This document shows positions 45,100 to 63,931 of a stretch of 64,000 nt of DNA, piece after piece; the stretch's first letter is position 1, and each line of letters begins with the position of its first letter. The notes below the pieces were generated by a model that saw nothing but the letters and a program-made list of their open reading frames with translations, ran no database searches and was not told the origin of the DNA. The stretch is taken from positions 38,757 through 102,756 of the IMG/VR virus record IMGVR_UViG_3300005466_000025. One strand, 5' to 3'. The position numbers and the translations under genes were made by a program. This DNA is from a virus.

Positions 45100-45335
45100 T
45101 GATACTCAGAACAGCCTTGGCTGAAATTAGTGTGTCTAATCTAAGGGAGGTAATTCCTGAGGCCACATTCTCACCTGGAAATTGGTACGATGAGTGTGCA
45201 TCCAGGCCCATGACCCTAGATGTTAACTTATGGTACGAACTACGCAGTGAGTCCCCAGGTGTGATATACTTACCACTACGCGGGGCCGAACAGGTTTCGA
45301 CGGATAGACGGAGTGAACAGTTTGCATCGGTTTGA
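45099..45335 (+). CDS. Possible 78-aa protein overlapping the tmRNA gene
   Basis: It starts in a TAATG junction with the 16-aa peptide. The first 50 residues look protein-like, but the last 17 codons run into the tmRNA 5' end, so either the overlap is real or the ORF is spurious. It contains the tmRNA promoter. Confidence 0.35.
   Translation: MILRTALAEISVSNLREVIPEATFSPGNWYDECASRPMTLDVNLWYELRSESPGVIYLPLRGAEQVSTDRRSEQFASV
45263..45271 (+). promoter_or_regulatory. Extended -10 promoter of the tmRNA gene
   Basis: TGATATACT with predicted +1 near 45278, five bases before the mature tmRNA 5' end. Confidence 0.6.
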
Positions 45336-45620
45336 GACACCTTAATCTCACGGTAGAAAATAAATGCAGATAATACATCTGACCTGACTGTTTCTAAGTC
45401 TCGCTTCGGCGCAGCATTTAGAACCGCAACAGTCGCAGTCGCTTAACACTGGTCAACACAAGTTAAGCTGGCGCTCCCGGAAACGGGGCAAAGAAATACT
45501 CTTTCTTAGTTTAAGACGAAACTAAGTGGTGGACCTGATCGCACCAACGGTCGCCCCCAAGATGCTCAAAGAATTGTTTGCAAAGCTAGACGGACCCGAG
45601 TTCGATTCTCGGCGGCTCCA
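45283..45620 (+). ncRNA. ssrA: Transfer-messenger RNA (tmRNA)
   Basis: The 5' end GGGGCCG pairs with CGGCTCC before an encoded terminal A/CCA end, keeping the G3-U70 pair that directs alanylation. The T-arm reads GACCCGAGTTCGATTCTCG near 45595-45611. A resume codon GCA at 45366 opens a tag frame A-D-N-T-S-D-L-T... of 26 residues ending VAVA before TAA 45444-45446. The tag is longer than typical bacterial ones. It rescues stalled ribosomes and marks nascent chains. An ORF starts one base after the 3' end. Confidence 0.92.
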
Positions 45621-54257: not shown

Positions 54258-54545
54258 ATGGCGGAACCAAAACGACGACGCAGAAGATACCCAAAGAAAC
54301 ACAAGGACTATCTAAACACACAAAGGCACAGATATAATGAGTTGTTAAAGGCTCAGAATGGGAAGTGTGCCCTGTGTAATCGTCGTCCTACTGAACACCG
54401 AAAGTTGGACATGGATCATAATCACCAAACCATGCAGCTAAGGGGTTTATTGTGCGTGCCTTGTAATAGAGCGGTCCGGGACTGGATGACAGTCGAGTGG
54501 GCCTTAAGGCTTGCGGATTACCTGGACCCAAAACGAAAGGTATAA
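54258..54545 (+). CDS. Recombination endonuclease VII (HNH-type)
   Basis: This 95-residue protein has CALCNRRP, LDMDHNH and LCVPCNRAVRDW: two CxxC zinc pairs and a DHNH catalytic loop, as in T4 endonuclease VII domain proteins. The basic N-terminus (PKRRRRRYPKK) binds DNA. It resolves branched DNA before packaging. Confidence 0.85.
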   Translation: MAEPKRRRRRYPKKHKDYLNTQRHRYNELLKAQNGKCALCNRRPTEHRKLDMDHNHQTMQLRGLLCVPCNRAVRDWMTVEWALRLADYLDPKRKV

Positions 54546-55018: not shown

Positions 55019-55100
55019 GCGCGAGTGGTGGAACGGTATACACACTAGGCTTAGAACCTAGCGCCCTCCGGGATTGTGGGTTCGACTCCCACCTTGCGTA
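55019..55100 (+). tRNA. tRNA-Leu(UAG)
   Basis: Acceptor GCGCGAG/CTTGCGT, anticodon stem CTAGG/CCTAG with loop CTTAGAA, long variable arm, A73. A normal type-II leucine tRNA. Confidence 0.9.
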
Positions 55101-55105
55101 CTTAT

Positions 55106-55179
55106 GCCCCTCTAACCCAATTGGTAGAGGTATCCGGTTTAAGCCCGGTCAAGTGAGAGTTCGAATCTCTCGGGGGGTA
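55106..55179 (+). tRNA. tRNA with Leu anticodon UAA, type-I architecture
   Basis: Acceptor GCCCCTC/GGGGGGT, anticodon stem TCCGG/CCGGT, loop TTTAAGC (34-36 TAA, reads UUA), A73. The variable loop is only CAAGT, whereas bacterial leucine tRNAs normally have a long variable arm. Its body closely matches the Leu(CAA) tRNA at 59972. Confidence 0.8.
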
Positions 55180-55184
55180 CTAAT

Positions 55185-55268
55185 GTCGATCTGGTGAAAT
55201 AGGTAGACACGCTAGCTTGAGGGGCTAGTTCCAGAAATGGAGTGCGGGTTCGACTCCCGCGTTCGACA
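55185..55268 (+). tRNA. tRNA-Leu(GAG)
   Basis: Anticodon stem CTAGC/GCTAG with loop TTGAGGG, long variable arm, A73. Acceptor has one U-U mismatch at pair 6. An ORF starts two bases after its 3' end. Confidence 0.88.
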
Positions 55269-55270
55269 CT

Positions 55271-55384
55271 ATGAAATTAATGACGTTACAGCAAGCACAA
55301 GCTATGAAAATTGCAGAATTTAATTCCCTTTTTAAGGACGTAATTTTCACAGCAAAACGCGGCGGAATTAAATTTGCATCTTAG
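55271..55384 (+). CDS. Possible 37-aa protein between two tRNAs
   Basis: ATG 55271 lies two bases after tRNA-Leu(GAG), and its last nine bases overlap tRNA-Tyr. No Shine-Dalgarno is possible except within the tRNA. The product is basic and helical (ending TAKRGGIKFAS). Part of the tRNA-punctuated ORF set. Confidence 0.45.
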   Translation: MKLMTLQQAQAMKIAEFNSLFKDVIFTAKRGGIKFAS

Positions 55385-55453
55385 CCCAAGGTGGGCACGG
55401 TGGCTGTAACCCACCCGTCTAAGACATGGTAGGTTCGATTCCTACAGGATGCA
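55376..55453 (+). tRNA. tRNA-Tyr(GUA)
   Basis: Acceptor GCATCTT/AGGATGC, anticodon stem GGTGG/CCACC with loop CTGTAAC, a medium-long variable arm as in bacterial Tyr tRNAs, A73. It overlaps the 3' end of the 37-codon ORF. Confidence 0.9.
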
Positions 55454-55461
55454 CTTAAATT

Positions 55462-55857
55462 ATGAAGAATAACATCATCATCCTCACGCTTGTTGGAATA
55501 ATTGGATTGATGGCTGTTATCACAGTTTATTCCCTGACAAGTAAGACGGAAAAGGCACCAAAGGTTGCCAGGATAACAACATCATCAACCACAAGGGAAA
55601 TTAATAAGTTCTTTAGCAATGCGAGTGTTGAAGTTGTATCTAATCAAGTTGTTTGGAGTCTTAACAAGACTGATCTATTGGAGGAGACGGCATATGCGGC
55701 GGCTCGGGCGGATACTAAGGTGGAGAAGATTGGCTTTAGGAAATACTTTTTGTCCCAAGGCGGTGTAATCTATAGACAAGTGTGCTATAATCTACATGCG
55801 TTTGATGAGGCATGGTCGCTAGGATATTGTGTACATAGGAATATAGAGAAGGGTTAG
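55462..55857 (+). CDS. Membrane-anchored hypothetical protein, 131 aa
   Basis: ATG 55462 lies 8 bases after tRNA-Tyr. An N-terminal transmembrane helix (IIILTLVGIIGLMAVITVYSL) is followed by a soluble domain of about 100 residues with two Cys. It is probably exposed outside the membrane. The family is unknown. Confidence 0.65.
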   Translation: MKNNIIILTLVGIIGLMAVITVYSLTSKTEKAPKVARITTSSTTREINKFFSNASVEVVSNQVVWSLNKTDLLEETAYAAARADTKVEKIGFRKYFLSQGGVIYRQVCYNLHAFDEAWSLGYCVHRNIEKG

Positions 55858-55859
55858 AA

Positions 55860-55922
55860 ATGGAATTCGGTCTGTTGGGTCTTATATTACTTATCATCAT
55901 TATCGTTTTAATTGTAAGATAA
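55860..55922 (+). CDS. 20-aa single-helix membrane micropeptide
   Basis: ATG 55860 overlaps the upstream stop region, with AGAAGGG upstream. The peptide is almost entirely Leu/Ile/Val with a terminal Arg (LLGLILLIIIIVLIVR), like KdpF-type or regulatory membrane micropeptides. It ends three bases before tRNA-Ser(GCU). Confidence 0.5.
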   Translation: MEFGLLGLILLIIIIVLIVR

Positions 55923-55925
55923 CAC

Positions 55926-56013
55926 GGAATGGCAAGCCGATGGTTGGCGACGGCACTCCCCTGCTAAGGGAGCGAGCTTAAAAGCCTTGTGGGATCGTTC
56001 CCCACCCTTTCCG
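55926..56013 (+). tRNA. tRNA-Ser(GCU)
   Basis: Anticodon stem CTCCC/GGGAG with loop CTGCTAA, long variable arm, T-stem GTGGG/CCCAC, G73. One acceptor mismatch (pair 5). An ORF starts three bases after the 3' end. Confidence 0.88.
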
Positions 56014-56016
56014 CTC

Positions 56017-56367
56017 ATGAGAAGAATATTAGATAATATAGCCATCATATTCTTGGTGATTGTTGTCACAGGTGGCTTTATCTATTCCTTATATCAGGGT
56101 TTCTTTGAGGATACAGGGGCGAGGGCCAGATTGGCTATCTCAAATAATATCAAATCCTGTCAGGATAACATAGCCAAGGCCGTTGTGTTTGAGCAGTTCG
56201 CTAGGGAGGCCGCAGCCGCCAGACGTGCCCAGGCTGCCGCTGATTTTAAAGCGGGAGATGAAATCTCAGCCAAGAATAATCTTGCCACGGCGGAACGCTA
56301 TGAGTCCTTCGCTCATCAATGGGATGTATTGACAGTTAAGGACTGTCGTAAGGAATACGGAGGCTAG
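56017..56367 (+). CDS. Membrane-anchored coiled-coil protein, 116 aa
   Basis: ATG 56017 follows tRNA-Ser(GCU) by three bases, with no Shine-Dalgarno. A transmembrane helix at about 8-27 is followed by a long Ala/Arg/Glu-rich helix, probably a coiled coil. It has the same plan as the next gene. Confidence 0.6.
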   Translation: MRRILDNIAIIFLVIVVTGGFIYSLYQGFFEDTGARARLAISNNIKSCQDNIAKAVVFEQFAREAAAARRAQAAADFKAGDEISAKNNLATAERYESFAHQWDVLTVKDCRKEYGG

Positions 56368-56396
56368 TAAGGATTTTGTAAGGCCCTCTTTTTTTG

Positions 56397-56405
56397 TGCT
56401 ATACT
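56397..56405 (+). promoter_or_regulatory. Extended -10 promoter, leaderless start
   Basis: TGCTATACT; six bases separate the hexamer from ATG 56412. TTGTAA 18 bases upstream of the hexamer (56376-56381) is a possible -35. Confidence 0.7.
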
Positions 56406-56411
56406 CCTATC

Positions 56412-56822
56412 ATGATACGACTGAGAAGCGAGAAGGGACAGGGCGATGTTGGTTTCGTCCTCGCAATCGGATTCGTTGCAGTCATTGTTCTTGTAGGTTT
56501 TGTTACCCTTCTATTTGGAGCTAAGGCTTATTCCAGATATCAGAAGAGGGCTGACGCCGAAAACCAAGTTAAGGTGACGGCAATTCAGATCAGGAACCAG
56601 GAACAGCGAGTCAAGATTGCACAGCAGAAGGCGCAGATTAGATATCAGGAGGCAATTGGTATTCGTCGCGCCCAGGATGAAATTGCAAAGACCCTGAATA
56701 GAAACTATCTTACACACGAATATATTCAGGCTCTTAGGGAATCACATGCAACAACTGTTTATATCCCGACTAGCCCGACAGATGGACTTCCCGTTGTAAC
56801 AACAAGAAACGCAGGAGACTAA
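56412..56822 (+). CDS. Membrane-anchored coiled-coil protein, leaderless, 136 aa
   Basis: ATG 56412 is at the predicted transcription start. A transmembrane helix (GFVLAIGFVAVIVLVGFVTL, about 14-35) is followed by a long charged helix and a Thr/Ser/Pro-rich end. A strong hairpin terminator follows. The role is unknown; position does not suggest lysis. Confidence 0.65.
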   Translation: MIRLRSEKGQGDVGFVLAIGFVAVIVLVGFVTLLFGAKAYSRYQKRADAENQVKVTAIQIRNQEQRVKIAQQKAQIRYQEAIGIRRAQDEIAKTLNRNYLTHEYIQALRESHATTVYIPTSPTDGLPVVTTRNAGD

Positions 56823-56855
56823 ACAGCAAGGCCCCCTTCCGGGGGCCTTAACTGT
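56823..56855 (+). terminator. GC-rich hairpin terminator
   Basis: AAGGCCCCC (56828-56836) pairs with GGGGGCCTT (56841-56849), extended by ACAG/CTGT outside. No long U-tract, as is common in high-GC bacteria and their phages. Confidence 0.7.
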
Positions 56856-56889
56856 CGCGGGATGAGCTACCAAAAGCATTATACCAATA

Positions 56890-56898
56890 TGGTATAAT
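56890..56898 (+). promoter_or_regulatory. Extended -10 promoter of the methyltransferase gene, leaderless start
   Basis: TGGTATAAT; six bases then GTG 56905. Confidence 0.7.
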
Positions 56899-56904
56899 GA
56901 TTAT

Positions 56905-57900
56905 GTGAGATTAACCGTAGGAAGTTTGTTTAGTGGATGTGGCGGATTAGATTTGGGAATGGAAAGGGCTGGATTCGACACCATATGGATGTGCGAAAAC
57001 GACAAATGGTGCAGGAAGATTCTGAACAAGAATTGGCCTGGTATTCACTTATACGAAGACGCGAATACGTTCATGCCAGACTCGGTAGACATATTGATTG
57101 GTGGATTCCCGTGTCAGCCAGTGTCATTCGCAGGGAGAAGAAATGGAGTTGATGATCCTAAATGGCTATGGCCCGCTTATGAAAGAACCATTCGCAATCT
57201 TCGACCCAGATACGTTATCGTGGAAAACGTACCCGGACTCTTCAGACACGGATTCGATGAAGTTCTCGGATCGTTGGCCCTACAGGGGTATAATGCTGAA
57301 TGGTTCAGTCTACAATCTTCAGACATTGGAGCGCCCCACAGACGAAAAAGAGTTTTTATTCTTGCTACCAACTCCGGTAGCCTGGGACTCAGGAAGGACA
57401 ACAAAGGCCCATCTGGCAAACAAGGCAAAGCTAGGGGAAGGGAGAAAAATGATTACTTCCCTCAACGTCTTAGTGAGGAATCAATTTCAGCAGCCGCTCT
57501 TGCCGACACCGTTAGTGGACGATTCAAAAAACGGCAAAAGGGGTGGGAGTTACAACTCATTGAGTCGGAGCGTGATTCTGTTGCCAACTCCGACAGCAAA
57601 TATGAGTACAGGGCCGGGAGGATTCAAGGTACGCGGGGGCAAGAATTTGCAGACAGCGATTTCGGAAATTACGCAGAGGCTATTAGACGATGGTCTGAAC
57701 TCAATGGACTCCCTCCCGCCCCAAGAGACGAGCAAGGAAGAATGAGTCCCTACTTCGTTGAATGGATGATGGGATTCCCTGAGGGATGGACAGAAGGTGT
57801 ATCGAAAACACAGCGGCTAAAAATGCTAGGTAATAGTGTTCAGGTTCAATGCGCCCAGGTTGCAGGGAACCTCATAAGAGAGAAGGTTAAGAATGAGTAA
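56905..57900 (+). CDS. DNA (cytosine-5) methyltransferase, leaderless GTG start
   Basis: This 331-residue protein has SLFSGCGGLDLGMERAGF (SAM motif I), GGFPCQPVS (catalytic Cys70), VIVENVPGL (Glu107), IGAPHRRKRVFILA (QRR-like motif VIII) and a C-terminal LGNSVQ motif. It methylates cytosine C5, possibly to protect phage DNA from host restriction. The GTG is at the predicted +1 of TGGTATAAT, with no Shine-Dalgarno. A second protein-like frame overlaps residues 80-280. Confidence 0.88.
   Translation: MRLTVGSLFSGCGGLDLGMERAGFDTIWMCENDKWCRKILNKNWPGIHLYEDANTFMPDSVDILIGGFPCQPVSFAGRRNGVDDPKWLWPAYERTIRNLRPRYVIVENVPGLFRHGFDEVLGSLALQGYNAEWFSLQSSDIGAPHRRKRVFILATNSGSLGLRKDNKGPSGKQGKARGREKNDYFPQRLSEESISAAALADTVSGRFKKRQKGWELQLIESERDSVANSDSKYEYRAGRIQGTRGQEFADSDFGNYAEAIRRWSELNGLPPAPRDEQGRMSPYFVEWMMGFPEGWTEGVSKTQRLKMLGNSVQVQCAQVAGNLIREKVKNE
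57143..57745 (+). CDS. Overlapping gene inside the cytosine methyltransferase, about 200 aa
   Basis: A second frame (+1) open from at least 57098 has ATG 57143 with GGGAG five bases upstream. The product (FAIFDPDTLSWKTYP, PYRGIMLNGSVYNL, LERPTDEKEF, then LLPTPVAWDS, LLPTPLVDD and LLPTPTANM) has the conserved-looking modules of stand-alone phage proteins that accompany cytosine methyltransferases. A chance frame would not show three LLPTP units. The function is unknown. Confidence 0.55.
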   Translation: MELMILNGYGPLMKEPFAIFDPDTLSWKTYPDSSDTDSMKFSDRWPYRGIMLNGSVYNLQTLERPTDEKEFLFLLPTPVAWDSGRTTKAHLANKAKLGEGRKMITSLNVLVRNQFQQPLLPTPLVDDSKNGKRGGSYNSLSRSVILLPTPTANMSTGPGGFKVRGGKNLQTAISEITQRLLDDGLNSMDSLPPQETSKEE

Positions 57901-58126
57901 ACAATTTCTAACAATCGGGGAGGTTTCAAAACAAGTTGGTAGAGTATCCCACACCATAAGACAGTGGGAGAGGGACGGCCGTCTGCCTCCAAGACTTCTT
58001 CCCTCAAGGGATGAGAATGGATGGAGGGTTTGGACGGTAGATCAGGTTGAGGAACTAAAGGTTTGGATAGAGAAGGAGGACCTTCGCCCAGGCAAGGCAC
58101 TTCCATACAATAATAAGGAGAAATAA
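57893..58126 (+). CDS. MerR-like helix-turn-helix DNA-binding protein, 77 aa
   Basis: It has FLTIGEVSKQVGRVSHTIRQW followed by ERDGRLPP, the MerR/excisionase winged-HTH pattern, and a short helical tail. It overlaps the methyltransferase stop (ATGAGTAA). It may regulate this cassette. Confidence 0.75.
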   Translation: MSKQFLTIGEVSKQVGRVSHTIRQWERDGRLPPRLLPSRDENGWRVWTVDQVEELKVWIEKEDLRPGKALPYNNKEK

Positions 58127-58354
58127 ATGAGTAGCAGCACAACAACTGCTAGTTCAGGAGTGAGTCTAGGGTTTCTTGAATTCCTGACGCTCATCTTCAT
58201 TACCCTAAAACTAACTGGTTATATTGACTGGTCATGGTGGTGGGTTCTGTCTCCACTGTGGGCACAGCTAGTTGTCTTTGTAATCGCCCTTATAACAGTT
58301 CTGTTGTATGCGGCTGGAAGTATCAAGAGAGGAAAAGCAGATGGCATCAGATGA
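58127..58354 (+). CDS. Two-helix membrane protein, 75 aa
   Basis: AAGGAGAAATAA lies before the ATG. Hydrophobic helices at about 13-30 and 38-62 are joined by a Trp-rich turn (DWSWWWVL). The function is unknown. Confidence 0.65.
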   Translation: MSSSTTTASSGVSLGFLEFLTLIFITLKLTGYIDWSWWWVLSPLWAQLVVFVIALITVLLYAAGSIKRGKADGIR

Positions 58355-58556
58355 GGCACTAGATACATTCACATTCACAGTTGAGGAGAAAATTGGACTT
58401 AAGGATTATTCAAACATCCTAGTTCGGGCCTCCCTGTCCAGACAGATTCCCGACGATGAGGATGCACGCAAGGATGTTATCAATATCGTGGAGAATATTC
58501 TGGTAATGGAGCGTCGTATTGTCCTAGAGGACCTAGGGGTAGAAGTAAAGTCTTAG
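58341..58556 (+). CDS. Hypothetical protein, 71 aa
   Basis: ATG 58341 follows GAGAGGAAAAG and overlaps the membrane-protein gene. An acidic alpha/beta protein (EEKIGLKDYSNILVRASL). No family is assigned. Confidence 0.6.
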   Translation: MASDEALDTFTFTVEEKIGLKDYSNILVRASLSRQIPDDEDARKDVINIVENILVMERRIVLEDLGVEVKS

Positions 58557-58563
58557 TAAAGTC

Positions 58564-58576
58564 GCCCCACAGGGGC
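58564..58576 (+). terminator. Short hairpin after the methyltransferase cassette
   Basis: GCCCC (58564-58568) / GGGGC (58572-58576) with a 3-base loop, no U-tract. It lies directly before the next promoter. Confidence 0.4.
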
Positions 58577-58584
58577 AGAATCTT

Positions 58585-58593
58585 TGCTATAGT
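58585..58593 (+). promoter_or_regulatory. Extended -10 promoter whose +1 is the first base of a tRNA
   Basis: TGCTATAGT; six bases later is 58600, the first base of tRNA(CAU). Confidence 0.65.
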
Positions 58594-58599
58594 TCTTGG

Positions 58600-58672
58600 T
58601 GCGCGTTGGAGAAGCGGTTACCTCGCAAGCTTCATAAGCTTGAGAACCCTGGTTCGAATCCAGGACGCGCTA
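58600..58672 (+). tRNA. tRNA-Met or tRNA-Ile2 (CAU), with U1-U72 mismatch
   Basis: Acceptor TGCGCGT/ACGCGCT with a mismatched first pair, anticodon stem CAAGC/GCTTG with loop TTCATAA, A73. The mismatch recalls initiator tRNAs, but the three G-C pairs of initiators are absent from the anticodon stem. The 5' end coincides with the predicted +1. Confidence 0.8.
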
Positions 58673-58673
58673 C

Positions 58674-58703
58674 TTGACAAGGGACGGTGAAGTATGCTAC
58701 ACT
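58674..58703 (+). promoter_or_regulatory. Consensus -35/-10 promoter
   Basis: TTGACA (58674-58679), 18-base spacer ending in TGC, TACACT (58698-58703). The best -35 in the window; drives the next tRNA block. Confidence 0.75.
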
Positions 58704-58754
58704 TTGTCGAAATGGGGATACGTCCCCGAGAAACTTGACAACTTAGTAGGTCAT

Positions 58755-58828
58755 CTGGATGTAGGAAAGCTTGGCAATCCGTCTGCTTTGGGAGCAGAAG
58801 ACCGCTGGTTCGAATCCAGCCATCCGGA
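58755..58828 (+). tRNA. tRNA-Pro(UGG)
   Basis: Acceptor CTGGATG/CATCCGG (C1-G72 as in Pro), anticodon loop TTTGGGA, T-loop TTCGAAT, A73. Confidence 0.9.
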
Positions 58829-58945
58829 CTGTTGCGACTAATCTAGATACGTCGCAATCGTGAGTGGTGACCCGTTAATTCACCACCGTTACCCAATAGG
58901 CGTTGTATTGGGGGTGCCCCCGCCTACCAAAATGTGGGGTATTAT
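58829..58945 (+). other. Spacer with hairpins between tRNA genes
   Basis: TTGCGAC...GTCGCAA (7 bp), GGTGA...TCACC and GGCG...CGCC can form three successive hairpins. No ORF or tRNA is seen here. Confidence 0.4.
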
Positions 58946-59020
58946 CTGGGTGTAGCTCAGCTTGGTCAGAGTAATCGCCTTGGACGCGAGAAGTCGCAGG
59001 TTCGAATCCTGCTGCCCAGA
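58946..59020 (+). tRNA. tRNA-Pro(UGG), second copy
   Basis: Acceptor CTGGGTG/TGCCCAG with C1-G72, loop CTTGGAC (34-36 TGG), one anticodon-stem mismatch, A73. Different body from the copy at 58755. Confidence 0.8.
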
Positions 59021-59075
59021 CTGGAAGCAACTGTGTGGATACGTAAAAGTGTTGCTGAAAGTAAGTCCACAACCC

Positions 59076-59151
59076 GATGGTATAGTGAAGTCAGGCCTAT
59101 CACGTCTCCCTGTCAAGGAGAAGAACACGGGTTCGAATCCCGTTATCATCG
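59076..59151 (+). tRNA. tRNA-Asp(GUC)
   Basis: Acceptor GATGGTA/TATCATC, anticodon stem TCTCC/GGAGA with loop CTGTCAA, G73. Confidence 0.9.
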
Positions 59152-59154
59152 CTA

Positions 59155-59215
59155 AAGAGAGTCCCTTCGATCCCTGGACGGACGCGCGCCTAGAGGTAAG
59201 ACGCAATACTCTCTT
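59155..59215 (+). other. Closed-stem spacer element E1 (structured RNA)
   Basis: AAGAGAGT (59155-59162) pairs perfectly with ACTCTCTT (59208-59215), closing a 61-base unit between tRNA-Asp and tRNA-Gly. There is no T-arm or anticodon arm, so it is not a tRNA. Confidence 0.45.
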
Positions 59216-59220
59216 AACTA

Positions 59221-59292
59221 GCAGCAATAATTCAGTGGTAGAATGTCTGCTTGCCAAGCAGAATGTCGTGAGTTCGAATCTCACTTGTTGCT
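59221..59292 (+). tRNA. tRNA-Gly(GCC)
   Basis: Acceptor GCAGCAA/TTGTTGC, anticodon stem TCTGC/GCAGA, loop TTGCCAA, U73 as in Gly. Confidence 0.92.
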
Positions 59293-59375
59293 CTTATCTG
59301 CCTAAGTCAGTCCTCGGCGTATGGCGAGAGGAATATGGGAGCCTGGAACCCATAGGTAAAAAATGCACGGCAAAT

Positions 59376-59447
59376 GAGTCGGAAGTATCTGGTGATATCC
59401 CTGGGCTGTGACTCCGGGCGGGTAGGGTTCGATCCCCTAACGACTCT
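59376..59447 (+). tRNA. tRNA-His(GUG)
   Basis: Acceptor GAGTCGG/ACGACTC (last pair mismatched), loop CTGTGAC, T-stem TAGGG/CCCTA. No encoded G-1/C73 pair is evident, unusual for His. Confidence 0.8.
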
Positions 59448-59511
59448 TAGTGGTTCATGCCTTGCCTGCAAGGGCGGAAAGAACGGATACTACAAGGCCC
59501 GTCACCACTAA
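59447..59511 (+). other. Closed-stem spacer element E2 (structured RNA)
   Basis: TTAGTGGT (59447-59454) pairs with ACCACTAA (59504-59511), with an inner CCTTG/CAAGG hairpin. A 65-base unit abutting tRNA-His and tRNA-Gly; no T-arm. Confidence 0.5.
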
Positions 59512-59517
59512 TTTTAA

Positions 59518-59590
59518 GCTTCCTTATTGTTAATGGTTAGCAAACGTGCCTTCCAAGCATGGAGTGTCAGTTCAAATCTGACAGGAAGCT
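59518..59590 (+). tRNA. tRNA-Gly(UCC)
   Basis: Acceptor GCTTCCT/AGGAAGC, loop CTTCCAA, T-loop TTCAAAT, U73. Confidence 0.9.
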
Positions 59591-59595
59591 CTCAA

Positions 59596-59668
59596 GTCTC
59601 TATAGCTCAGTGGAAAAGAGCAACGGGTTTCTACCCCGTGAGCCTAGGTTCGAATCCTAGTAGGGACT
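59596..59668 (+). tRNA. tRNA-Arg(UCU)
   Basis: Acceptor GTCTCTA/TAGGGAC, anticodon stem ACGGG/CCCGT, loop TTTCTAC, T-loop TTCGAAT. Confidence 0.92.
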
Positions 59669-59722
59669 CTGTGAATAAGATTCGGCGCAGGGCGTACCTT
59701 GGCGCGGCAACAGAACAAGTGC

Positions 59723-59781
59723 GGGACTTACCGGGAAGTACAAGCAACTAGGCGAGACGGCGCTGAACGGGAGAAAGTCCC
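59723..59781 (+). other. Closed-stem spacer element E3 (structured RNA)
   Basis: GGGACTT (59723-59729) pairs with AAGTCCC (59775-59781), 59 bases long, between tRNA-Arg and tRNA-Lys. The 50 bases before it are G/C-rich and also hairpin-prone, without an ORF. Confidence 0.45.
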
Positions 59782-59791
59782 TCCCAAATAT

Positions 59792-59866
59792 GGAACATTA
59801 GCTAAAATGGACAAAGGCACCTGGCTCTTAACCAGGAGATTCTAGGTTCGATCCCTAGATGTTCCA
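59792..59866 (+). tRNA. tRNA-Lys(CUU)
   Basis: Acceptor GGAACAT/ATGTTCC, anticodon stem CCTGG/CCAGG, loop CTCTTAA, T-loop TTCGATC, A73. Confidence 0.92.
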
Positions 59867-59871
59867 CTTTA

Positions 59872-59964
59872 TTAACTCCCTGGATGGGTATCTGGCTCGA
59901 AACCAGTGTAATAAGAAATGGTGTTCTCCGCGGAACGTAGAGAGTTCGATTCTCTCCGGTTGAT
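59872..59964 (+). tRNA. tRNA-Ser(CGA) with shortened D-arm
   Basis: Anticodon stem CTGG/CCAG with loop CTCGAAA, long variable arm with GTTC/GAAC, T-stem GAGAG/CTCTC. Acceptor TTAACTC/CGGTTGA has one mismatch. Only about 12 bases (CCTGGATGGGTA) lie between acceptor and anticodon stems, so the D-arm is truncated. Confidence 0.65.
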
Positions 59965-59971
59965 AAAACTT

Positions 59972-60045
59972 GCCCCTCTAGCCCAATTGGCAGAGGCACG
60001 GCACTCAAAACGCCGACAGTCTGAGTTCGAATCTCAGGTGGGGTA
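59972..60045 (+). tRNA. tRNA with Leu anticodon CAA, type-I architecture
   Basis: Acceptor GCCCCTC/GTGGGGT, loop CTCAAAA, variable loop only ACAGT, A73. Near-identical D-region to the UAA tRNA at 55106. The thioredoxin ORF starts two bases after it. Confidence 0.8.
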
Positions 60046-60047
60046 CT

Positions 60048-60299
60048 ATGAAACACCTAATGAAATTTGAAGCTGATTGGTGTGGCCCATGTCATGCCAT
60101 TAGACCGCTAGTTGAAAAGATTGCGGATGAGAATGAACTAGATATAGTGGTGGTTGATATTGATAAGGACAGTGACGTTGCCACCCTGTATGGAGTCGCC
60201 TCAATTCCAACAATCATTTTGATTGAGGATGGTTCAGAAGTAGCAAGGCATATTGGTTCCGCGCCAAAATCCACAATAGAAAAGAACTTGAATTTATAG
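60048..60299 (+). CDS. Thioredoxin-like protein
   Basis: This 83-residue protein has WCGPCHAIRP (residues 12-21) and VASIPTIILI (cis-Pro loop), a compact thioredoxin fold. It could serve as reductant for ribonucleotide reductase. The ATG is two bases after tRNA-Leu(CAA), and the only purine-rich run lies inside that tRNA. Its TAG overlaps the first bases of tRNA-Ile(GAU). Confidence 0.85.
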   Translation: MKHLMKFEADWCGPCHAIRPLVEKIADENELDIVVVDIDKDSDVATLYGVASIPTIILIEDGSEVARHIGSAPKSTIEKNLNL

Positions 60300-60374
60300 A
60301 CTAGTACGCCCTCTGGCTGATAACCAGTTGAAAGGCTATGCGGATACAAAATGGTTCGAATCCATTCTAGTCTA
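60298..60374 (+). tRNA. tRNA-Ile(GAU)-like, D-arm missing
   Basis: Acceptor AGACTAG/CTAGTCT, anticodon stem TCTGG/CCAGT with loop CTGATAA, T-arm AATGG/CCATT with TTCGAAT, A73. Only 7 bases separate acceptor and anticodon stems, while 21 bases replace the variable loop. It is either a D-armless tRNA or a rearranged one. Confidence 0.6.
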
Positions 60375-60375
60375 C

Positions 60376-60415
60376 TGGGTAAGGAATTTGTTAAAAAGGG
60401 TCGATTCCCACCCCA
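60376..60415 (+). other. tRNA-like remnant (T-arm and acceptor only)
   Basis: GGG-TCGATT-CCC resembles a T-arm flanked by TGGGT...ACCCCA, with no anticodon arm. Likely a decayed tRNA. Confidence 0.3.
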
Positions 60416-60429
60416 AACTTGAAATCTTG

Positions 60430-60438
60430 TGCTATAAT
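60430..60438 (+). promoter_or_regulatory. Extended -10 promoter of a structured RNA
   Basis: TGCTATAAT, predicted +1 near 60445, seven bases before the first hairpin of the 60452-60585 RNA. Confidence 0.65.
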
Positions 60439-60451
60439 CCTTAGCACACAA

Positions 60452-60585
60452 GGGGAGATATGGGTTAAACTGTATCTTCCCACCATGCCTCTCACAGTCT
60501 TACGGCTGTCAGAGGCTCCTGGCCCCCAGTACCCTAACGGGGAAAAGGGCAGCCTGGAAGGAGAGGGGTAAAAGCCTCTCCTTCC
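60452..60585 (+). ncRNA. Structured non-coding RNA with four successive hairpins
   Basis: Hairpin A: GGGGAGATA (60452-60460) with TATCTTCCC (60473-60481). B: GCCTCTCACAG (60487-60497) with CTGTCAGAGGC (60506-60516), one mismatch. C: CTGG...CCTGG region (60518-60557). D: GGAAGGAGAGG (60556-60566) with CCTCTCCTTCC (60575-60585), 11 perfect pairs. It starts just downstream of a promoter and is followed by tRNA-Val. No family is recognised. Confidence 0.6.
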
Positions 60586-60594
60586 CCCAAACTT

Positions 60595-60667
60595 AGGCAA
60601 TTAGCTCAGCCGGGAGAGCGCCGTTCTTACAAATCGGAGGCCGGGGGATCGAAGCCCTCATTGCCTA
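60595..60667 (+). tRNA. tRNA-Val(UAC)
   Basis: Acceptor AGGCAAT/ATTGCCT, loop CTTACAA, T-loop ATCGAAG (T54 replaced by A), A73. One mismatch in the anticodon stem. Confidence 0.82.
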
Positions 60668-60671
60668 TCAA

Positions 60672-60743
60672 GTCAAAGTGACCGAGCGGATAGGTATGAG
60701 TCTGCAAAACTCATTCACGCTGGTTCGAATCCAGTCTTTGACT
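60672..60743 (+). tRNA. tRNA-Cys(GCA)
   Basis: Acceptor GTCAAAG/CTTTGAC, anticodon stem TGAGT/ACTCA, loop CTGCAAA, U73 as in Cys. Confidence 0.92.
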
Positions 60744-60776
60744 CTTCCTTTTCCTAGGATAAAAAGGAGGTACCAT

Positions 60777-60869
60777 ATGACAGCAATTAAACCAGGAAAG
60801 CTTTCGACACTTACTGTCGCCTGGACTCCGACCTGGACCGCTAATTGGTCGCCAGTCTGGTCAATGTAA
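60777..60869 (+). CDS. 30-aa tryptophan-rich micropeptide
   Basis: AAAAAGGAGG lies 6 bases before ATG 60777, one of the best ribosome-binding sites in the array. After a basic start (TAIKPGKLS) the peptide has four Trp in a regular pattern, W-T-P-T-W-T-A-N-W-S-P-V-W. This is likely membrane-active or a binding peptide. No family is known to me. Confidence 0.6.
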   Translation: MTAIKPGKLSTLTVAWTPTWTANWSPVWSM

Positions 60870-60881
60870 GTCAAGAGATGG

Positions 60882-60934
60882 GTTAGGTATTTTCTAGATA
60901 AATCCAGCATTCAAGGCCGCGCCTTTGCCTAACG
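60882..60934 (+). other. Hairpin spacer between micropeptide and tRNA-Ala
   Basis: GTTAGG...CCTAAC (6 bp) encloses AAGGC/GCCTT. No ORF is seen here. Confidence 0.35.
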
Positions 60935-60960
60935 AGGGAAGTAAAATGCGGTCAATAAAT

Positions 60961-61032
60961 GGGGCTGTAAGCTAATCAGGAAACTACCTGCTTTGCACGC
61001 AGGAATACGGGGAGCATAACCCCGCCGCTCCA
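60961..61032 (+). tRNA. tRNA-Ala(UGC) with atypical T-loop
   Basis: Acceptor GGGGCTG/CCGCTCC keeps G3-U70, the Ala identity pair. Anticodon stem CCTGC/GCAGG, loop TTTGCAC, A73. The T-loop is AGCATAA instead of TTCRANY. Confidence 0.75.
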
Positions 61033-61091
61033 CTCCCTTCAAGTAGAGATACCAAGTGATCATGGTGAGGGAAACTAAAGTCTCTATACAT

Positions 61092-61163
61092 TCCAGCTTG
61101 GCGCAAAGGTAGCGCAATCGGCTGTTAACCGAGAGGTTCTAGGTTCGAATCCTAGAGTTGGAG
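61092..61163 (+). tRNA. tRNA-Asn(GUU)
   Basis: Acceptor TCCAGCT/AGTTGGA, anticodon stem ATCGG/CCGAG (outermost pair A-G mismatched), loop CTGTTAA, T-stem CTAGG/CCTAG, G73. Confidence 0.88.
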
Positions 61164-61235
61164 CTAGCGGAGGGGCATATGGACAGACTCCGTATGTTAA
61201 ATGAGGGGCGTATCGCCCCCGCCCCAATGCCACAT

Positions 61236-61307
61236 TCCTCAGTAGCTTAGTAGTAGAGCAGCAGTCTCATAAGCTGTAAGGCAATGGTGCAACTCCATTC
61301 TGAGGGA
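61236..61307 (+). tRNA. tRNA-Met or tRNA-Ile2 (CAU), second CAU tRNA
   Basis: Acceptor TCCTCAG/CTGAGGG, loop CTCATAA, T-arm AATGG/CCATT with loop TGCAACT, A73. The 1-72 pair is U-G. Confidence 0.8.
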
Positions 61308-61327
61308 CTATATTGAACCACAGCTTG

Positions 61328-61336
61328 TGTTATAAT
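61328..61336 (+). promoter_or_regulatory. Extended -10 promoter, leaderless HNH gene
   Basis: TGTTATAAT; five bases then ATG 61342. Confidence 0.65.
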
Positions 61337-61341
61337 ATAGC

Positions 61342-61650
61342 ATGAGCAAGCAGGCAGAATATTCGTCTAAATGGTACAATAATAATAAGCAGTTGCAGAA
61401 GCAAAGAGTTGACAGTAGAAGAAGGGAAATGACCCAATTTCTGTTCTCTCTAAAGAAAAATAAGAAGTGTGCGTTCTGTTCAGAGAGTGAGCCAGCTTGT
61501 CTAGACTGGCATCACACTAGAGATAAGATCGTAGATGTAAGTCAGATTCCAAAGATGGGTTGGGGTAAGGAGAAAGCATTAGAAGAAATTTCAAAGTGCA
61601 TTCTTGTTTGCGCCAACTGTCACAGGAAACTACACGCCGGATTAGTTTAA
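61342..61650 (+). CDS. HNH endonuclease, leaderless
   Basis: This 102-residue protein has a basic N-terminus, then CAFCSESEPACLDWHHTRDK and CANCHRKLHAG, the two zinc pairs and catalytic His of HNH/homing-type nucleases. It lies inside a tRNA array and its 3' end overlaps tRNA-Thr, so it may be a free-standing homing endonuclease. No Shine-Dalgarno; the ATG sits at the predicted +1. Confidence 0.8.
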   Translation: MSKQAEYSSKWYNNNKQLQKQRVDSRRREMTQFLFSLKKNKKCAFCSESEPACLDWHHTRDKIVDVSQIPKMGWGKEKALEEISKCILVCANCHRKLHAGLV

Positions 61651-61707
61651 CTGGTAAAACACGACTCTTGTAAAGTTGTGAACAGGGTTCAAGTCCTTGA
61701 TTCGGCT
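61636..61707 (+). tRNA. tRNA-Thr(UGU)
   Basis: Acceptor GCCGGAT/ATTCGGC, anticodon stem CGACT/AGTTG, loop CTTGTAA, T-loop TTCAAGT. The first 15 bases overlap the HNH ORF. Confidence 0.88.
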
Positions 61708-61732
61708 TAGGGTTCGATTCCTAGACGTGGCT
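61708..61732 (+). pseudogene. 3' tRNA fragment (T-arm plus acceptor strand)
   Basis: A second TTCGATT loop with CCTAG and an ACGTGGC acceptor strand directly follows tRNA-Thr, with no matching 5' half. It looks like the relic of a tRNA recombination. Confidence 0.5.
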
Positions 61733-61736
61733 CTTA

Positions 61737-61745
61737 TGCTATAAT
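61737..61745 (+). promoter_or_regulatory. Extended -10 promoter
   Basis: TGCTATAAT with predicted +1 near 61752, the base of the TAGGCTC/GAGCCTA hairpin. Confidence 0.65.
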
Positions 61746-61752
61746 GTTCCCT

Positions 61753-61821
61753 TAGGCTCCTAGCTCCTAAAATTGGACGTGAGCCTACGCGCAGGTAAAG
61801 GCATGGCGTAACAGATGCCTT
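61753..61821 (+). other. Two-hairpin 5' leader before tRNA-Ile(UAU)
   Basis: TAGGCTC (61753-61759) pairs with GAGCCTA (61781-61787), then AAGGCAT (61798-61804) with ATGCCTT (61815-61821). It starts at the predicted +1. Confidence 0.45.
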
Positions 61822-61827
61822 GTGTTT

Positions 61828-61901
61828 GCACCTTGGCAGGCCGGTTGTTTGGAGGTATCTTATAAGTATCTTTAAGCTTGGTTCGACTCCAAGAGGGTGT
61901 A
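61828..61901 (+). tRNA. tRNA-Ile(UAU)
   Basis: Acceptor GCACCTT/AGGGTGT, anticodon stem GGTAT/GTATC, loop CTTATAA, T-loop TTCGACT, A73. UAU is a rare anticodon that reads AUA. An ORF starts three bases after it. Confidence 0.85.
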
Positions 61902-61904
61902 TAA

Positions 61905-62072
61905 ATGGAATATACAAAAACACAGTGGGAGTCATTCCCGACAACAAAGGATGCGGAAGTTATTTCATGCCAGTATTGTGAGAACGAAACTGTTGTGAAA
62001 GCTAACAAATTCGTAACACGGTACACATGTCCTACGTGCTATAGTGTACCTAAGTTAAGCAAGCGCAAGTAA
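61905..62072 (+). CDS. Zinc-ribbon protein, 55 aa
   Basis: ATG 61905 lies three bases after tRNA-Ile(UAU). CQYC and CPTC (21 residues apart) form a zinc ribbon, and the tail is basic (KLSKRK). The stop is four bases before tRNA-Glu. The purine run that could act as a Shine-Dalgarno is inside the tRNA acceptor stem. Confidence 0.65.
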   Translation: MEYTKTQWESFPTTKDAEVISCQYCENETVVKANKFVTRYTCPTCYSVPKLSKRK

Positions 62073-62075
62073 CAT

Positions 62076-62146
62076 GGCCCTATCGTCTAATGGTAGGACG
62101 GGTGCCTTTCAAGCATCTAACCGGGGATCGTAACCCCGTAGGGCTA
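62076..62146 (+). tRNA. tRNA-Glu(UUC)
   Basis: Acceptor GGCCCTA/TAGGGCT, anticodon stem GGTGC/GCATC, loop CTTTCAA, T-stem CGGGG/CCCCG with loop ATCGTAA. Confidence 0.85.
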
Positions 62147-62150
62147 CTAA

Positions 62151-62222
62151 CGCTCATTAGCTCAACGGAAAGAGCATTGGTCTTCGAAACCAAGAGTGAA
62201 GGTTCGATTCCTTCATGGGCGT
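62151..62222 (+). tRNA. tRNA-Arg(UCG)
   Basis: Acceptor CGCTCAT/ATGGGCG, anticodon stem TTGGT/ACCAA, loop CTTCGAA, T-stem GAAGG/CCTTC. Confidence 0.92.
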
Positions 62223-62223
62223 C

Positions 62224-62327
62224 TGGCAGGAAGTCACATTTAAGTTGAAGTGACTGATAGTAGATGAAGATGGAAGATGGAGGTAGAAGTAGTACAGTCG
62301 TAGTTCTGCATCATCGACTTCCTGCCA
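62224..62327 (+). ncRNA. Putative non-coding RNA closed by a 12-bp perfect stem
   Basis: TGGCAGGAAGTC (62224-62235) pairs perfectly with GACTTCCTGCCA (62316-62327). Inside are GTCAC/GTGAC and a purine-rich stretch with repeated GATGRA/GGAGG-like units. It sits between tRNA-Arg and tRNA-Lys with no ORF. Confidence 0.55.
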
Positions 62328-62377
62328 ATTTGTTTGGTGGACCGGGACTCCTGGGTAAGAGTAAAAACTGCCCAATA

Positions 62378-62449
62378 TCCTCCGTAGCGTACTGGCAGCG
62401 CACACGCCTTTTAAGCGACGAGGACAGGGTTCGATTCCCTGCGGGGGGA
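62378..62449 (+). tRNA. tRNA-Lys(UUU)
   Basis: Acceptor TCCTCCG/CGGGGGG, loop CTTTTAA, T-stem CAGGG/CCCTG, A73. The anticodon stem keeps only three good pairs. Confidence 0.78.
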
Positions 62450-62578
62450 CTGGCGAAGGTGTCGTTCGAATCGACTATGGTGTAACCTGGAAGCACATCG
62501 CCATGAATCCATGCGACGGCATGGGGGTACCAGGGTATCTGGTTGTTCGTCGGGGTCAACCTTAATCAATCCGACCAT
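62450..62578 (+). other. Spacer with T-arm-like and other hairpins
   Basis: GTCG-TTCGAAT-CGAC looks like an isolated T-arm, and GGTTG/CAACC forms a second hairpin. No anticodon arm or ORF is visible. Confidence 0.35.
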
Positions 62579-62650
62579 TTCTCAGTCGTCTAATTGGCAG
62601 GACAGCGGACTTTGAATCCGCGAATCTGGGTTCGAATCCTAGCAGAGAAA
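62579..62650 (+). tRNA. tRNA-Gln(UUG)
   Basis: Acceptor TTCTCAG/CAGAGAA (one mismatch), anticodon stem GCGGA/TCCGC, loop CTTTGAA, T-loop TTCGAAT. Confidence 0.88.
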
Positions 62651-62655
62651 CTACA

Positions 62656-62712
62656 CCCCTCCGAATGGGTCATAGACTAGTCCGGCTACCCCTGAAATAG
62701 AGCCGGGAGGGG
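62656..62712 (+). other. Closed-stem spacer element E4 (structured RNA)
   Basis: CCCCTCC (62656-62662) pairs with GGAGGGG (62706-62712) and encloses CGGCT/AGCCG. A 57-base unit between tRNA-Gln and tRNA-Arg. Confidence 0.5.
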
Positions 62713-62717
62713 ATCAA

Positions 62718-62790
62718 TGCTTCTTAGCTCAGAGGATAGAGCGCGTCCCTGCGAAGGACGAGGCCATAGGTTCGATTCCTATAGGGGCAA
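62718..62790 (+). tRNA. tRNA-Arg(GCG)
   Basis: Acceptor TGCTTCT/AGGGGCA, anticodon stem CGTCC/GGACG, loop CTGCGAA, T-stem ATAGG/CCTAT, A73. An ORF starts one base after the 3' end. Confidence 0.88.
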
Positions 62791-62791
62791 T

Positions 62792-62995
62792 ATGATAATT
62801 AAATTAGGACCAATAGTGATTATGGATTCCAAGACAAGGGAGGCCTATAGGGAACTCCTAACAGAGGCATATTTGGTTCATCAAAATATTTGGTTTTCAC
62901 AGGATTGGGCGCAATCTGAGCAGGAAATTAAGAATGCAGATTCCCATCTTTCTGAAGCAATTTCACATGTACCAGCAAGTGAATTAGAAATTTAG
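62792..62995 (+). CDS. Hypothetical protein, 67 aa, between tRNA-Arg and RNase P RNA
   Basis: ATG 62792 begins one base after tRNA-Arg(GCG). The AGGGGCA acceptor strand is the only Shine-Dalgarno-like run. A helical, acidic protein (DSKTREAYRELLTEAYL...). Its stop lies in the first helix of the RNase P RNA. The function is unknown. Confidence 0.6.
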   Translation: MIIKLGPIVIMDSKTREAYRELLTEAYLVHQNIWFSQDWAQSEQEIKNADSHLSEAISHVPASELEI

Positions 62996-63346
62996 AGTGG
63001 AAGACTTGTGCGGCGGAATTCCAACACCGTCGAGGAAGTTCGGGCCACATGAATGCGCTAGACTTGCGAGGAGGCGCAGGAAACGAGCAGAAAAAGTGGG
63101 AGCGGTCGTAAGCTAACGATGGGAAACCGGGAGAAATAGCTGGCCGCGCCTTACCACAAATTCGTCGGTGTGTAACCTCAAGACGCCCTTAGTCTAAGGG
63201 GCATGGTAGAGGGCAGCTAATAATTTAGCCATATGGAGTCATAGTGTCCCTTCTCTACGAAGGTGGTAAGCCCTGAGGTCACGTACAGGCGCTCCATATG
63301 AGACAGATGCAAGTCCACGACAGAATCCCGGCTACGAAACTCTAAA
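62991..63346 (+). ncRNA. rnpB: RNase P RNA (bacterial type)
   Basis: Helix P1: TTTAGAGT (62991-62998) with ACTCTAAA (63339-63346). P2: GACTTG (63003-63008) with CAAGTC (63310-63315). P3: CGGCGG (63011-63016) with CCGTCG (63027-63032). Conserved region I is GAGGAAGTTCGGGC (63032-63045), CAGAAA is at 63088-63093, and the near-universal CCACGACAGAATCCCGGCT is at 63315-63333. P4 forms TCGGG (63040-63044) with CCCGG (63327-63331). The RNA removes 5' leaders from pre-tRNAs with the host RnpA protein; none is seen here. It lies in the tRNA array it probably serves. Confidence 0.93.
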
Positions 63347-63380
63347 TTAACAAAATATTGACCTACTAAGTTGAAATTTG

Positions 63381-63389
63381 TGTTATAGT
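63381..63389 (+). promoter_or_regulatory. Extended -10 promoter of the tRNA-Trp block
   Basis: TGTTATAGT, predicted +1 near 63396, four bases before tRNA-Trp. TTGACC at 63358 is a possible -35 with a long spacer. Confidence 0.6.
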
Positions 63390-63399
63390 AATCAAACAC

Positions 63400-63470
63400 A
63401 GGCTGTTGGTGTAACAGCAGCATGAACGGCTCCAACCCGTTTGGCGAGGGTGCAAATCCTTCACGGCCTG
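63400..63470 (+). tRNA. tRNA-Trp(CCA)
   Basis: Acceptor AGGCTGT/ACGGCCT, anticodon stem AACGG/CCGTT, loop CTCCAAC, T-loop TGCAAAT, G73 as in Trp. Confidence 0.88.
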
Positions 63471-63510
63471 CTAGTCCTTGGCCCCCGGACTTTTAAAATA
63501 GGGGCAACAT

Positions 63511-63584
63511 GTTGATGTAGCTCAGCTAGGTAGAGCATTCGGTTGAAGCCCGCAAGGTCACAGGTTCGAGTCCTGTCGTCAACA
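63511..63584 (+). tRNA. tRNA-Phe(GAA)
   Basis: Acceptor GTTGATG/CGTCAAC, loop TTGAAGC, T-stem ACAGG/CCTGT, A73. Confidence 0.88.
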
Positions 63585-63589
63585 CTCTT

Positions 63590-63662
63590 GTTCCATTGGT
63601 CTAACGGTCAGGACGCCGCCCTCTCAAGGCGGAGGCTATGGGTTCGAATCCCATATGGAATA
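63590..63662 (+). tRNA. tRNA-Glu(CUC)
   Basis: Acceptor GTTCCAT/ATGGAAT, anticodon stem CCGCC/GGCGG, loop CTCTCAA, T-stem ATGGG/CCCAT. Confidence 0.9.
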
Positions 63663-63671
63663 TGAGGCAAG

Positions 63672-63743
63672 TAGGTTGTGGTGTAATGGTTAGCACACCG
63701 GGGTTTGACCCGGAGGAGCCGCGTTCGAATCGGGTCAGCCGAA
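63672..63743 (+). tRNA. Degenerate tRNA-like gene, anticodon uncertain
   Basis: D-arm GTGTAATGGTTAGCAC and a T-loop TTCGAAT are clear. The T-stem and acceptor carry mismatches, and the anticodon stem CCGGG/CCCGG closes a 6-base loop GTTTGA, so UUG (Gln) is the best but uncertain reading. Possibly a pseudo-tRNA. Confidence 0.4.
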
Positions 63744-63754
63744 AGCTTCAACTA

Positions 63755-63805
63755 AAAGAGTAAATTTCGGGATTTAACTACTCTTTCAAAAAACTTTTAA
63801 ATCCC
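63755..63805 (+). promoter_or_regulatory. Mutually exclusive hairpins before tRNA-Gln(CUG)
   Basis: AAAGAGTA (63755-63762) can pair with TACTCTTT (63779-63786), or GGGATTTAA (63769-63777) with TTAAATCCC (63797-63805). The two stems interleave, so only one can form at a time, as in an attenuator or processing switch. Confidence 0.45.
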
Positions 63806-63809
63806 ACTT

Positions 63810-63881
63810 TCCACAGTCGTCTAACGGGTAGGACGCTGGACTCTGAATCCAGTAATCTAGGTTCGAATCCTAGTAGTGGAG
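63810..63881 (+). tRNA. tRNA-Gln(CUG)
   Basis: Anticodon stem CTGGA/TCCAG, loop CTCTGAA, T-stem CTAGG/CCTAG, G73 as in Gln. Acceptor TCCACAG/TAGTGGA has one mismatch. Confidence 0.88.
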
Positions 63882-63907
63882 CTAACAGCCGGATGAATGT
63901 AAGTAAT

Positions 63908-63931
63908 AAGGTCCCTTCGGGGGCCTTTTTT
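63908..63931 (+). terminator. Rho-independent terminator of the tRNA array
   Basis: AAGGTCCC (63908-63915) pairs with GGGGCCTT (63920-63927), followed by a T-run to 63931. A weak TGTTATCCT element (63931-63939) follows and may be the next promoter. Confidence 0.75.

Follow-up and report, generated by a model that had tools for sequence, protein, structure and literature searches.

An RNase P RNA homologue in a phage tRNA array and its phage relatives with a rewritten, re-paired P4 helix

The DNA analyzed here (hereafter the window) is a 64,000-base stretch of a virus record of 102,756 bases, which carries the hallmark phage genes for portal protein, DnaB helicase, primase, ribonucleotide reductase, and DNA polymerase III alpha. 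A protein-based search returned no relatives of this phage. Analysis with ARAGORN and Rfam located an array of tRNA genes at 58600–63882 (+) that holds 26 of the 31 tRNA genes of the window, all on the plus strand, and encloses an RNase P RNA. The whole element extends from P1 to P1 over 62989–63348 (+) in window coordinates and sits between tRNA-Arg (62718–62790) and tRNA-Trp (63400–63471). A terminator-like hairpin with a T run, identified by consensus match only, lies at the end of the array (63908–63927, +). Two small ORFs were judged by eye to be HNH-endonuclease-like, one among the array tRNA genes (61342–61650) and the other just upstream of the tRNA genes (54258–54545). The window also contains a tmRNA gene (45282–45620) with the tag ADNTSDLTVSKSRFGAAFRTATVAVA, and the nearest tRNA genes are approximately 9 kb away.

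The conserved blocks and helices P1–P4 listed in the preliminary description were all present in the order given there. The block set comprises GAGGAAGTTCGGGC (63032), CAGAAA (about 63088), and CCACGACAGAATCCCGGCT, and P1, P2, P3, and the long-range P4 stand in pseudoknot order. P1 is formed by AATTTAGAGT (62989–62998, +) and ACTCTAAATT (63339–63348, +) and, at 10 bp, is slightly wider than the 8 bp first assigned to it. The 5′ strand of P2, GACTTGTG (63003–63010, +), pairs with 63308–63315 through six Watson–Crick pairs plus two wobble pairs. P3 is a 6-bp hairpin (CGGCGG...CCGTCG; 63011–63032, +) formed by 63011–63016 and 63027–63032. The 5′ strand of P4, with the equivalent of bulged U69, lies in CR-I (GAGGAAGTTCGGGC; 63032–63045, +) and the 3′ strand in CR-V (CACGACAGAATCCCGGCTA; 63316–63334, +), the helix itself being formed by 63037–63044 and 63327–63333. 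Ahead of the P2 3′ strand, alignment and the family model placed AGACAGATG (63301–63309, +) as the counterpart of bacterial AGAUGAAUG.

A descriptor search located the 5′ strand of P5, CACAT (63046–63050, +), which pairs with GTGTG (63168–63172), and J5/15, which reads TAA (63173–63175, +; CAA in most relatives) and holds the equivalents of A248/A249. The descriptor and the family model placed P15 (CCTC/GAGG), L15 with GGT (ATGGTA), and P16 (CCCTTA/TAAGGG) at 63176–63212 (+); the GGT lies at 63205 in L15, the loop binding the tRNA 3′ end. Only 16 of 1500 shuffled interiors matched the descriptor of P5, NAA, P15, GGU loop, and P16 at all, and 0 of 1500 scored as high as the window. The region replacing the specificity domain (S-domain; 63054–63157, +) was modeled by eye and constrained folding. 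It comprises a hairpin (63054–63078, +), a CR-II-like CAGAAAAA, a GTGG/CCAC stem (63096/63157, +), and a P12-like stem (63103–63146, +); CAGAAAAA and the P12-like stem are putative S-domain elements. No counterpart was identified in relatives for two extra hairpins between P15 and J18/2 (63216–63229 and 63230–63238/63292–63300, +).

The window copy is detected by a family-specific model only and is missed by Rfam. A match to RF00010 or RF00011 had been proposed as the check on this copy, and the Rfam RNase P families gave nothing here at the gathering score or even at E ≤ 10; judged by that check alone, the identification would be refuted. Minimum free energy folding alone was likewise not significant (z −0.71). 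The family covariance model, R1, was built from 17 related phage RNAs with the window excluded (205 positions). It matched 62991–63347 with 39 bits and an E-value, rough for this model, of 1.8e-9 as the sole match in the 64 kb, and assigned the same letters to P5, J5/15, and P15 as the descriptor. The RNase P RNA claimed at 62991–63346 is confirmed, and its interpretation as an RNase P RNA homologue with bacterial type-A layout in a phage tRNA array is supported. The placement of P1 and P2 scored 34.2, compared with a mean of 4.0 (sd 6.4, maximum 26.8) for shuffled flanks, and 0 of 1000 shuffles reached it; this shuffle test is the fair measure for P1 and P2, because the placement maximized pairing and thereby biased the percentage paired.

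The exact 19-mer CCACGACAGAATCCCGGCT occurred in one other IMG/VR contig, L001 (332-kb phage), in the middle of a tRNA array. The RNA at this site was recognized by Rfam as RNase P class A with 189.3 bits (E 7.9e-61), and the window and L001 share the same unusual P4 halves, GAGGAAGTTCGGG and ACAGAATCCCGGCTA, in place of bacterial GAGGAAAGTCCGGGC and ACAGAACCCGGCTTA. Among cultured phages, blastn with the window RNA as query detected nothing. The pattern GAGGAAGTTCGGGCC, which carries the C74 of the window, was tried as a route to a close relative and yielded none; contig L208 has only C74 in common.

P4 is described as the most conserved region of RNase P RNA; it holds the catalytic metal site and 11 of the 21 nucleotides that are universally conserved (PMC4919922). 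In the window, pairs 67–359, 68–358, and 71–356 (E. coli numbering) are changed and re-paired, and the top pair, C74–U353, is mismatched. Seven of eight P4 pairs are formed around bulged U69, but the element does not have the bacterial P4 sequence AAGUCCGGG / CCCGGCUU. The P4 metal site presumably consists of the phosphates of A67/G68 and O4 of U69, E. coli numbers that we converted from the T. maritima numbering of PMC4919922.

Across the phage group, up to six P4 pairs depart from the bacterial consensus; the changes are nearly always compensated, and the U69 bulge is kept. A67–U359 is replaced by G67–C359; G68–C358 by U68–G358, C68–G358, or U68–A358; C71–G356 by G71–C356 or A71–U356; and G74–C353 mostly by A74–U353, while pairs 72–355 and 73–354 are also replaced in some members. 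A66–U360 and C70–G357 are constant and U69 is invariant in 44 hand-aligned RNAs, although U69 was also built into the search descriptor. Counted over 34 phage-type RNAs, pairing was found in 268 of 272 P4 cells, compared with 135–138 when the 3′ strand was moved by one base. A one-base slide as the origin of the phage P4 was rejected: keeping U69 in register gives position-wise compensated changes, and the fit is halved when the pairing is shifted. Base-pair covariation was observed in P1, P2, and P4, with nearly all pair types at nearly all positions of P1 and P2 across the family. The four main P4 pairing sequences in about 57 records were GUUCGGG, GCUCGGG, GUUCGCG, and GUUCAAC, with frequencies that are biased because P4 sequences served as search seeds. 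The most deviant P4, AGUUCAAC with GUUGACU, was found in LR756502.1 (642,428-base phage record) and in L441 (507,910-base contig). L498, in which the P4 halves lie 825 nt apart, is a third candidate for the AGUUCAAC type.

The family was collected by IMG/VR scans seeded with one P4 half, in which the other half came back at RNase P-like distances. A pairing descriptor that fixes only GGAA, U69–C70, ACA[AG]AA, and G357 and requires the other five P4 pairs to form identified 61 loci of the phage type, from about 57 distinct records including the window, and 40 of the bacterial type, with 0 matches in 4.4 Mb of reversed sequences. The phage-type records are nearly all viral, most being metagenomic contigs, and their RNAs lie mostly in tRNA arrays; they range over IMG/VR contigs of up to 508 kb, one cultured phage, and the 642-kb phage record. 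At least three tRNAs were found within 3 kb of 46 of 56 phage-type RNAs, compared with 2 of 80 control loci, and all 487 of 487 tRNAs near those RNAs were on the same strand. An alignment of 41 members retains GCAA before P15, AAACAG, CGGGU, and AGAnnAAUG, as in bacterial RNase P, and the catalytic domain (C-domain) features NAA, P15, GGU, and P16 were detected by descriptor in 38 of 47 members, including the window. The window copy belongs to this group by its R1 match, its re-paired P4 starting with G67–C359, and its tRNA array.

When RF00010 was searched against 25 viral records, 14 matched at E ≤ 0.001 and six exceeded the 100-bit cut-off; the S-domain-keeping members L001, L181, L043, L007, and L017 reached 158–191 bits. 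Many other members are short, among them L058 at 149 nt and L336, L032, L062, L008, and L141 at 194–240 nt, and appear to have no specificity domain, since their length is only 149–240 nt. The RNA of L058 (7496–7644, −) measures 149 nt from P1 to P1, adjoins a tRNA array, and scores 78 bits with R1; this and the other members of 149–200 nt may be RNase P RNAs of exceptionally small size. Shortened RNAs with a bacterial-type P4 were observed in the tRNA-rich viral contigs L098 (203 kb; about 240 nt), L126 (171 kb; about 211 nt), and L107 (191 kb; P1/P2 not placed), which represent domain loss without P4 rewriting. The putative viral contigs L065 (372 kb) and L122 (497 kb) carry bacterial-type P4 RNAs that lie more than 3 kb from any tRNA, with the same helices called in both. 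In L019 (8–834, −), L038, L042, and L498, the P4 halves are 570–825 nt apart, and L019 gives two partial R1 matches; this wide spacing could reflect introns or insertions in the RNase P RNA gene. The Enterococcus EF1 and faecal-scaffold blast matches (H23 and H24) were rejected as members, as they gave no R1 match.

The cultured member is Stenotrophomonas phage DLP6 (KU682439.2), where the RNA occupies an unannotated gap of the tRNA array at 105773–106019. It scores 127.8 bits with R1 and 54.7 bits with RF00010, under the cut-off of 100, and its P4 pair 72–355 is flipped to C–G on both sides together. The DLP6 RNA was missed by cmscan, yet the 54.7 bits came from a separate RF00010 search, so a negative cmscan result counts for little by itself. 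In the DLP6 genome paper, 30 tRNAs are reported and RNase P goes unmentioned in the main text (PMC5349666). Seven further cultured phages that are large or carry tRNAs (S-CRM01, G, KVP40, Atu_ph07, XacN1, CcrColossus, and phiM12) were searched with R1 and RF00010, and none matched.

The preliminary description had noted no visible protein subunit, and a search for RnpA (PF00825) agreed, finding none in the 102,756-base record, in 34 related IMG/VR records of up to 497 kb, or in DLP6 (36 phage records, some of which may be fragments); the same search recovered RnpA from 10 of 14 control genomes. The simplest reading is that the phage RNAs most likely use host RnpA. CCA is encoded by none of the 31 window tRNA genes (55019–63882), and C74–U75 follows the discriminator in 23 of 31, so that the GGU loop would meet a C74–U75 end in these 23. 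The pattern may reflect 3′-end processing or pairing with the GGU of L15, to which, speculatively, C74–U75 could pair through a G–U wobble. The same C74–U75 pattern was observed in 27 of 33 tRNAs of L045 (161-kb contig).

Taken together, the window element is probably a phage-encoded RNase P ribozyme that cuts phage pre-tRNAs, most likely with host RnpA. From the anatomy we infer expression, catalysis, the RnpA partner, and an advantage to the phage. The RNA would be transcribed with the tRNA array and would fold into a bacterial type-A catalytic domain with P1–P2–P3, the long-range P4 with bulged U69, P5, and P15/L15. It would then bind host RnpA, the GGU of L15 would pair with the pre-tRNA 3′ end, and the 5′ leaders of the densely packed phage pre-tRNAs would be cut at the P4 metal site. 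Because the phage ribozyme would mature its own pre-tRNAs, the phage tRNA supply would be independent of host RNase P RNA. RNase P RNAs reduced to the C-domain show catalysis in vitro (PMC5839562, PMC11143913). The ribozyme reading is favored by the recognition of relatives with the altered P4 by RF00010 itself (L001, 189 bits), whereas the score of the window copy under every Rfam threshold, its only putative S-domain, its mismatched C74–U353, and the lack of an encoded CCA in all 31 tRNAs count against it, as do the seed-biased P4 frequencies and the mostly metagenomic origin of the members.

The same fold could instead serve as a decoy or regulator: bound to host RnpA or to pre-tRNA, the RNA would inhibit or redirect the host enzyme without catalysis of its own. 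Such a role would suit a phage that lacks RnpA and must share the host protein, as well as the loss of most of the substrate-binding S-domain in several members. It is nevertheless unlikely, because the active-site features are kept, with P4 paired in nearly all cells, U69 always there, and J5/15 NAA and the GGU loop retained by most RNAs of the family, and the tight link to same-strand tRNA genes fits tRNA processing better.

A host rnpB acquired by ordinary horizontal transfer that serves no purpose in the phage and is decaying would account for the strong divergence of the window copy and for the bacterial-type-P4 RNAs of viral contigs, including large ones in which the RNA lies in a tRNA array. 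This origin is quite improbable, as decay would not give the compensatory changes that keep the P1, P2, and P4 helices. When 84,980 species of bacteria and archaea were scanned with one 18-base 3′ motif only, the 28 matches, against about 30 estimated by chance, included a single real phage-type case, L374, which also speaks against this origin. This 45-kb contig with 15 tRNAs belongs to an Acidimicrobiia MAG whose own bacterial rnpB (300.8 bits) sits on a different contig, and L374 therefore looks like phage DNA; with this one case beside its own bacterial rnpB, no bacterial donor is known. Chance occurrence of the conserved blocks, which the silence of Rfam on the window and the non-significant folding energy would allow, is scarcely credible given the E-value of 1.8e-9 from an independent model, the failure of all 1000 and all 1500 shuffles to reach the scores of the two placements, and the recurrence of the 19-mer within a genuine RF00010 RNA of another phage.

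The phage RNAs resemble bacterial class A RNase P RNA (RF00010, E. coli M1 RNA) in P1–P5, P15/L15 GGU, P16, J5/15, AGAnnAAUG, bulged U69, order, and topology. They differ from it in the replacement of P4 pairs 67–359, 68–358, 71–356, and 74–353 (some also 72–355 and 73–354), in the length of many members (149–240 nt) with no recognizable S-domain, and in their setting in phage tRNA arrays. The archaeal minimal RNase P RNA of Pyrobaculum likewise has a catalytic domain and nearly no specificity domain, according to PMC4919922 citing Lai et al. 2010, but bacterial traits of the C-domain (GGU L15 and the bacterial P2/P3 layout) persist in the phage RNAs. CPR bacteria have diverged RNase P RNAs that are also missed by standard models and lack helices, although these are chromosomal and cellular, some without the UGG motif; two tRNA-rich megaphages are mentioned there, in passages that do not refer to a phage RNase P RNA (PMC8172020). 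Theta ribozymes of gut phages are likewise phage-encoded and tied to tRNA maturation, but they are HDV-like and act in cis on 3′ trailers rather than as RNase P (PMC10879173). Searches of the openly licensed PMC literature turned up no account of an RNase P RNA encoded by a phage, and one may exist in subscription papers or bioRxiv preprints; the group is widespread and apparently undescribed.

The chances appear about even that phages keep a long-standing RNase P ribozyme lineage apart from the cellular one, in which P4 was rewritten repeatedly by compensated swaps and the S-domain was often shed. If so, the sequence of P4 would not be dictated by catalysis alone, and a core ribozyme of tRNA processing, perhaps adapted to the tRNAs of phages, would be encoded by viruses. 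Since one member sits in a cultured phage, DLP6, experiments are possible now. Standard annotation overlooks many phage RNase P RNAs. RNase P RNA is a founding ribozyme, and a P4 rewritten yet re-paired around an unchanged U69 allows the requirements of the active site to be probed in natural RNAs. The finding suggests that phages carry, beyond tRNAs alone, a trans-acting enzyme of tRNA 5′ maturation.
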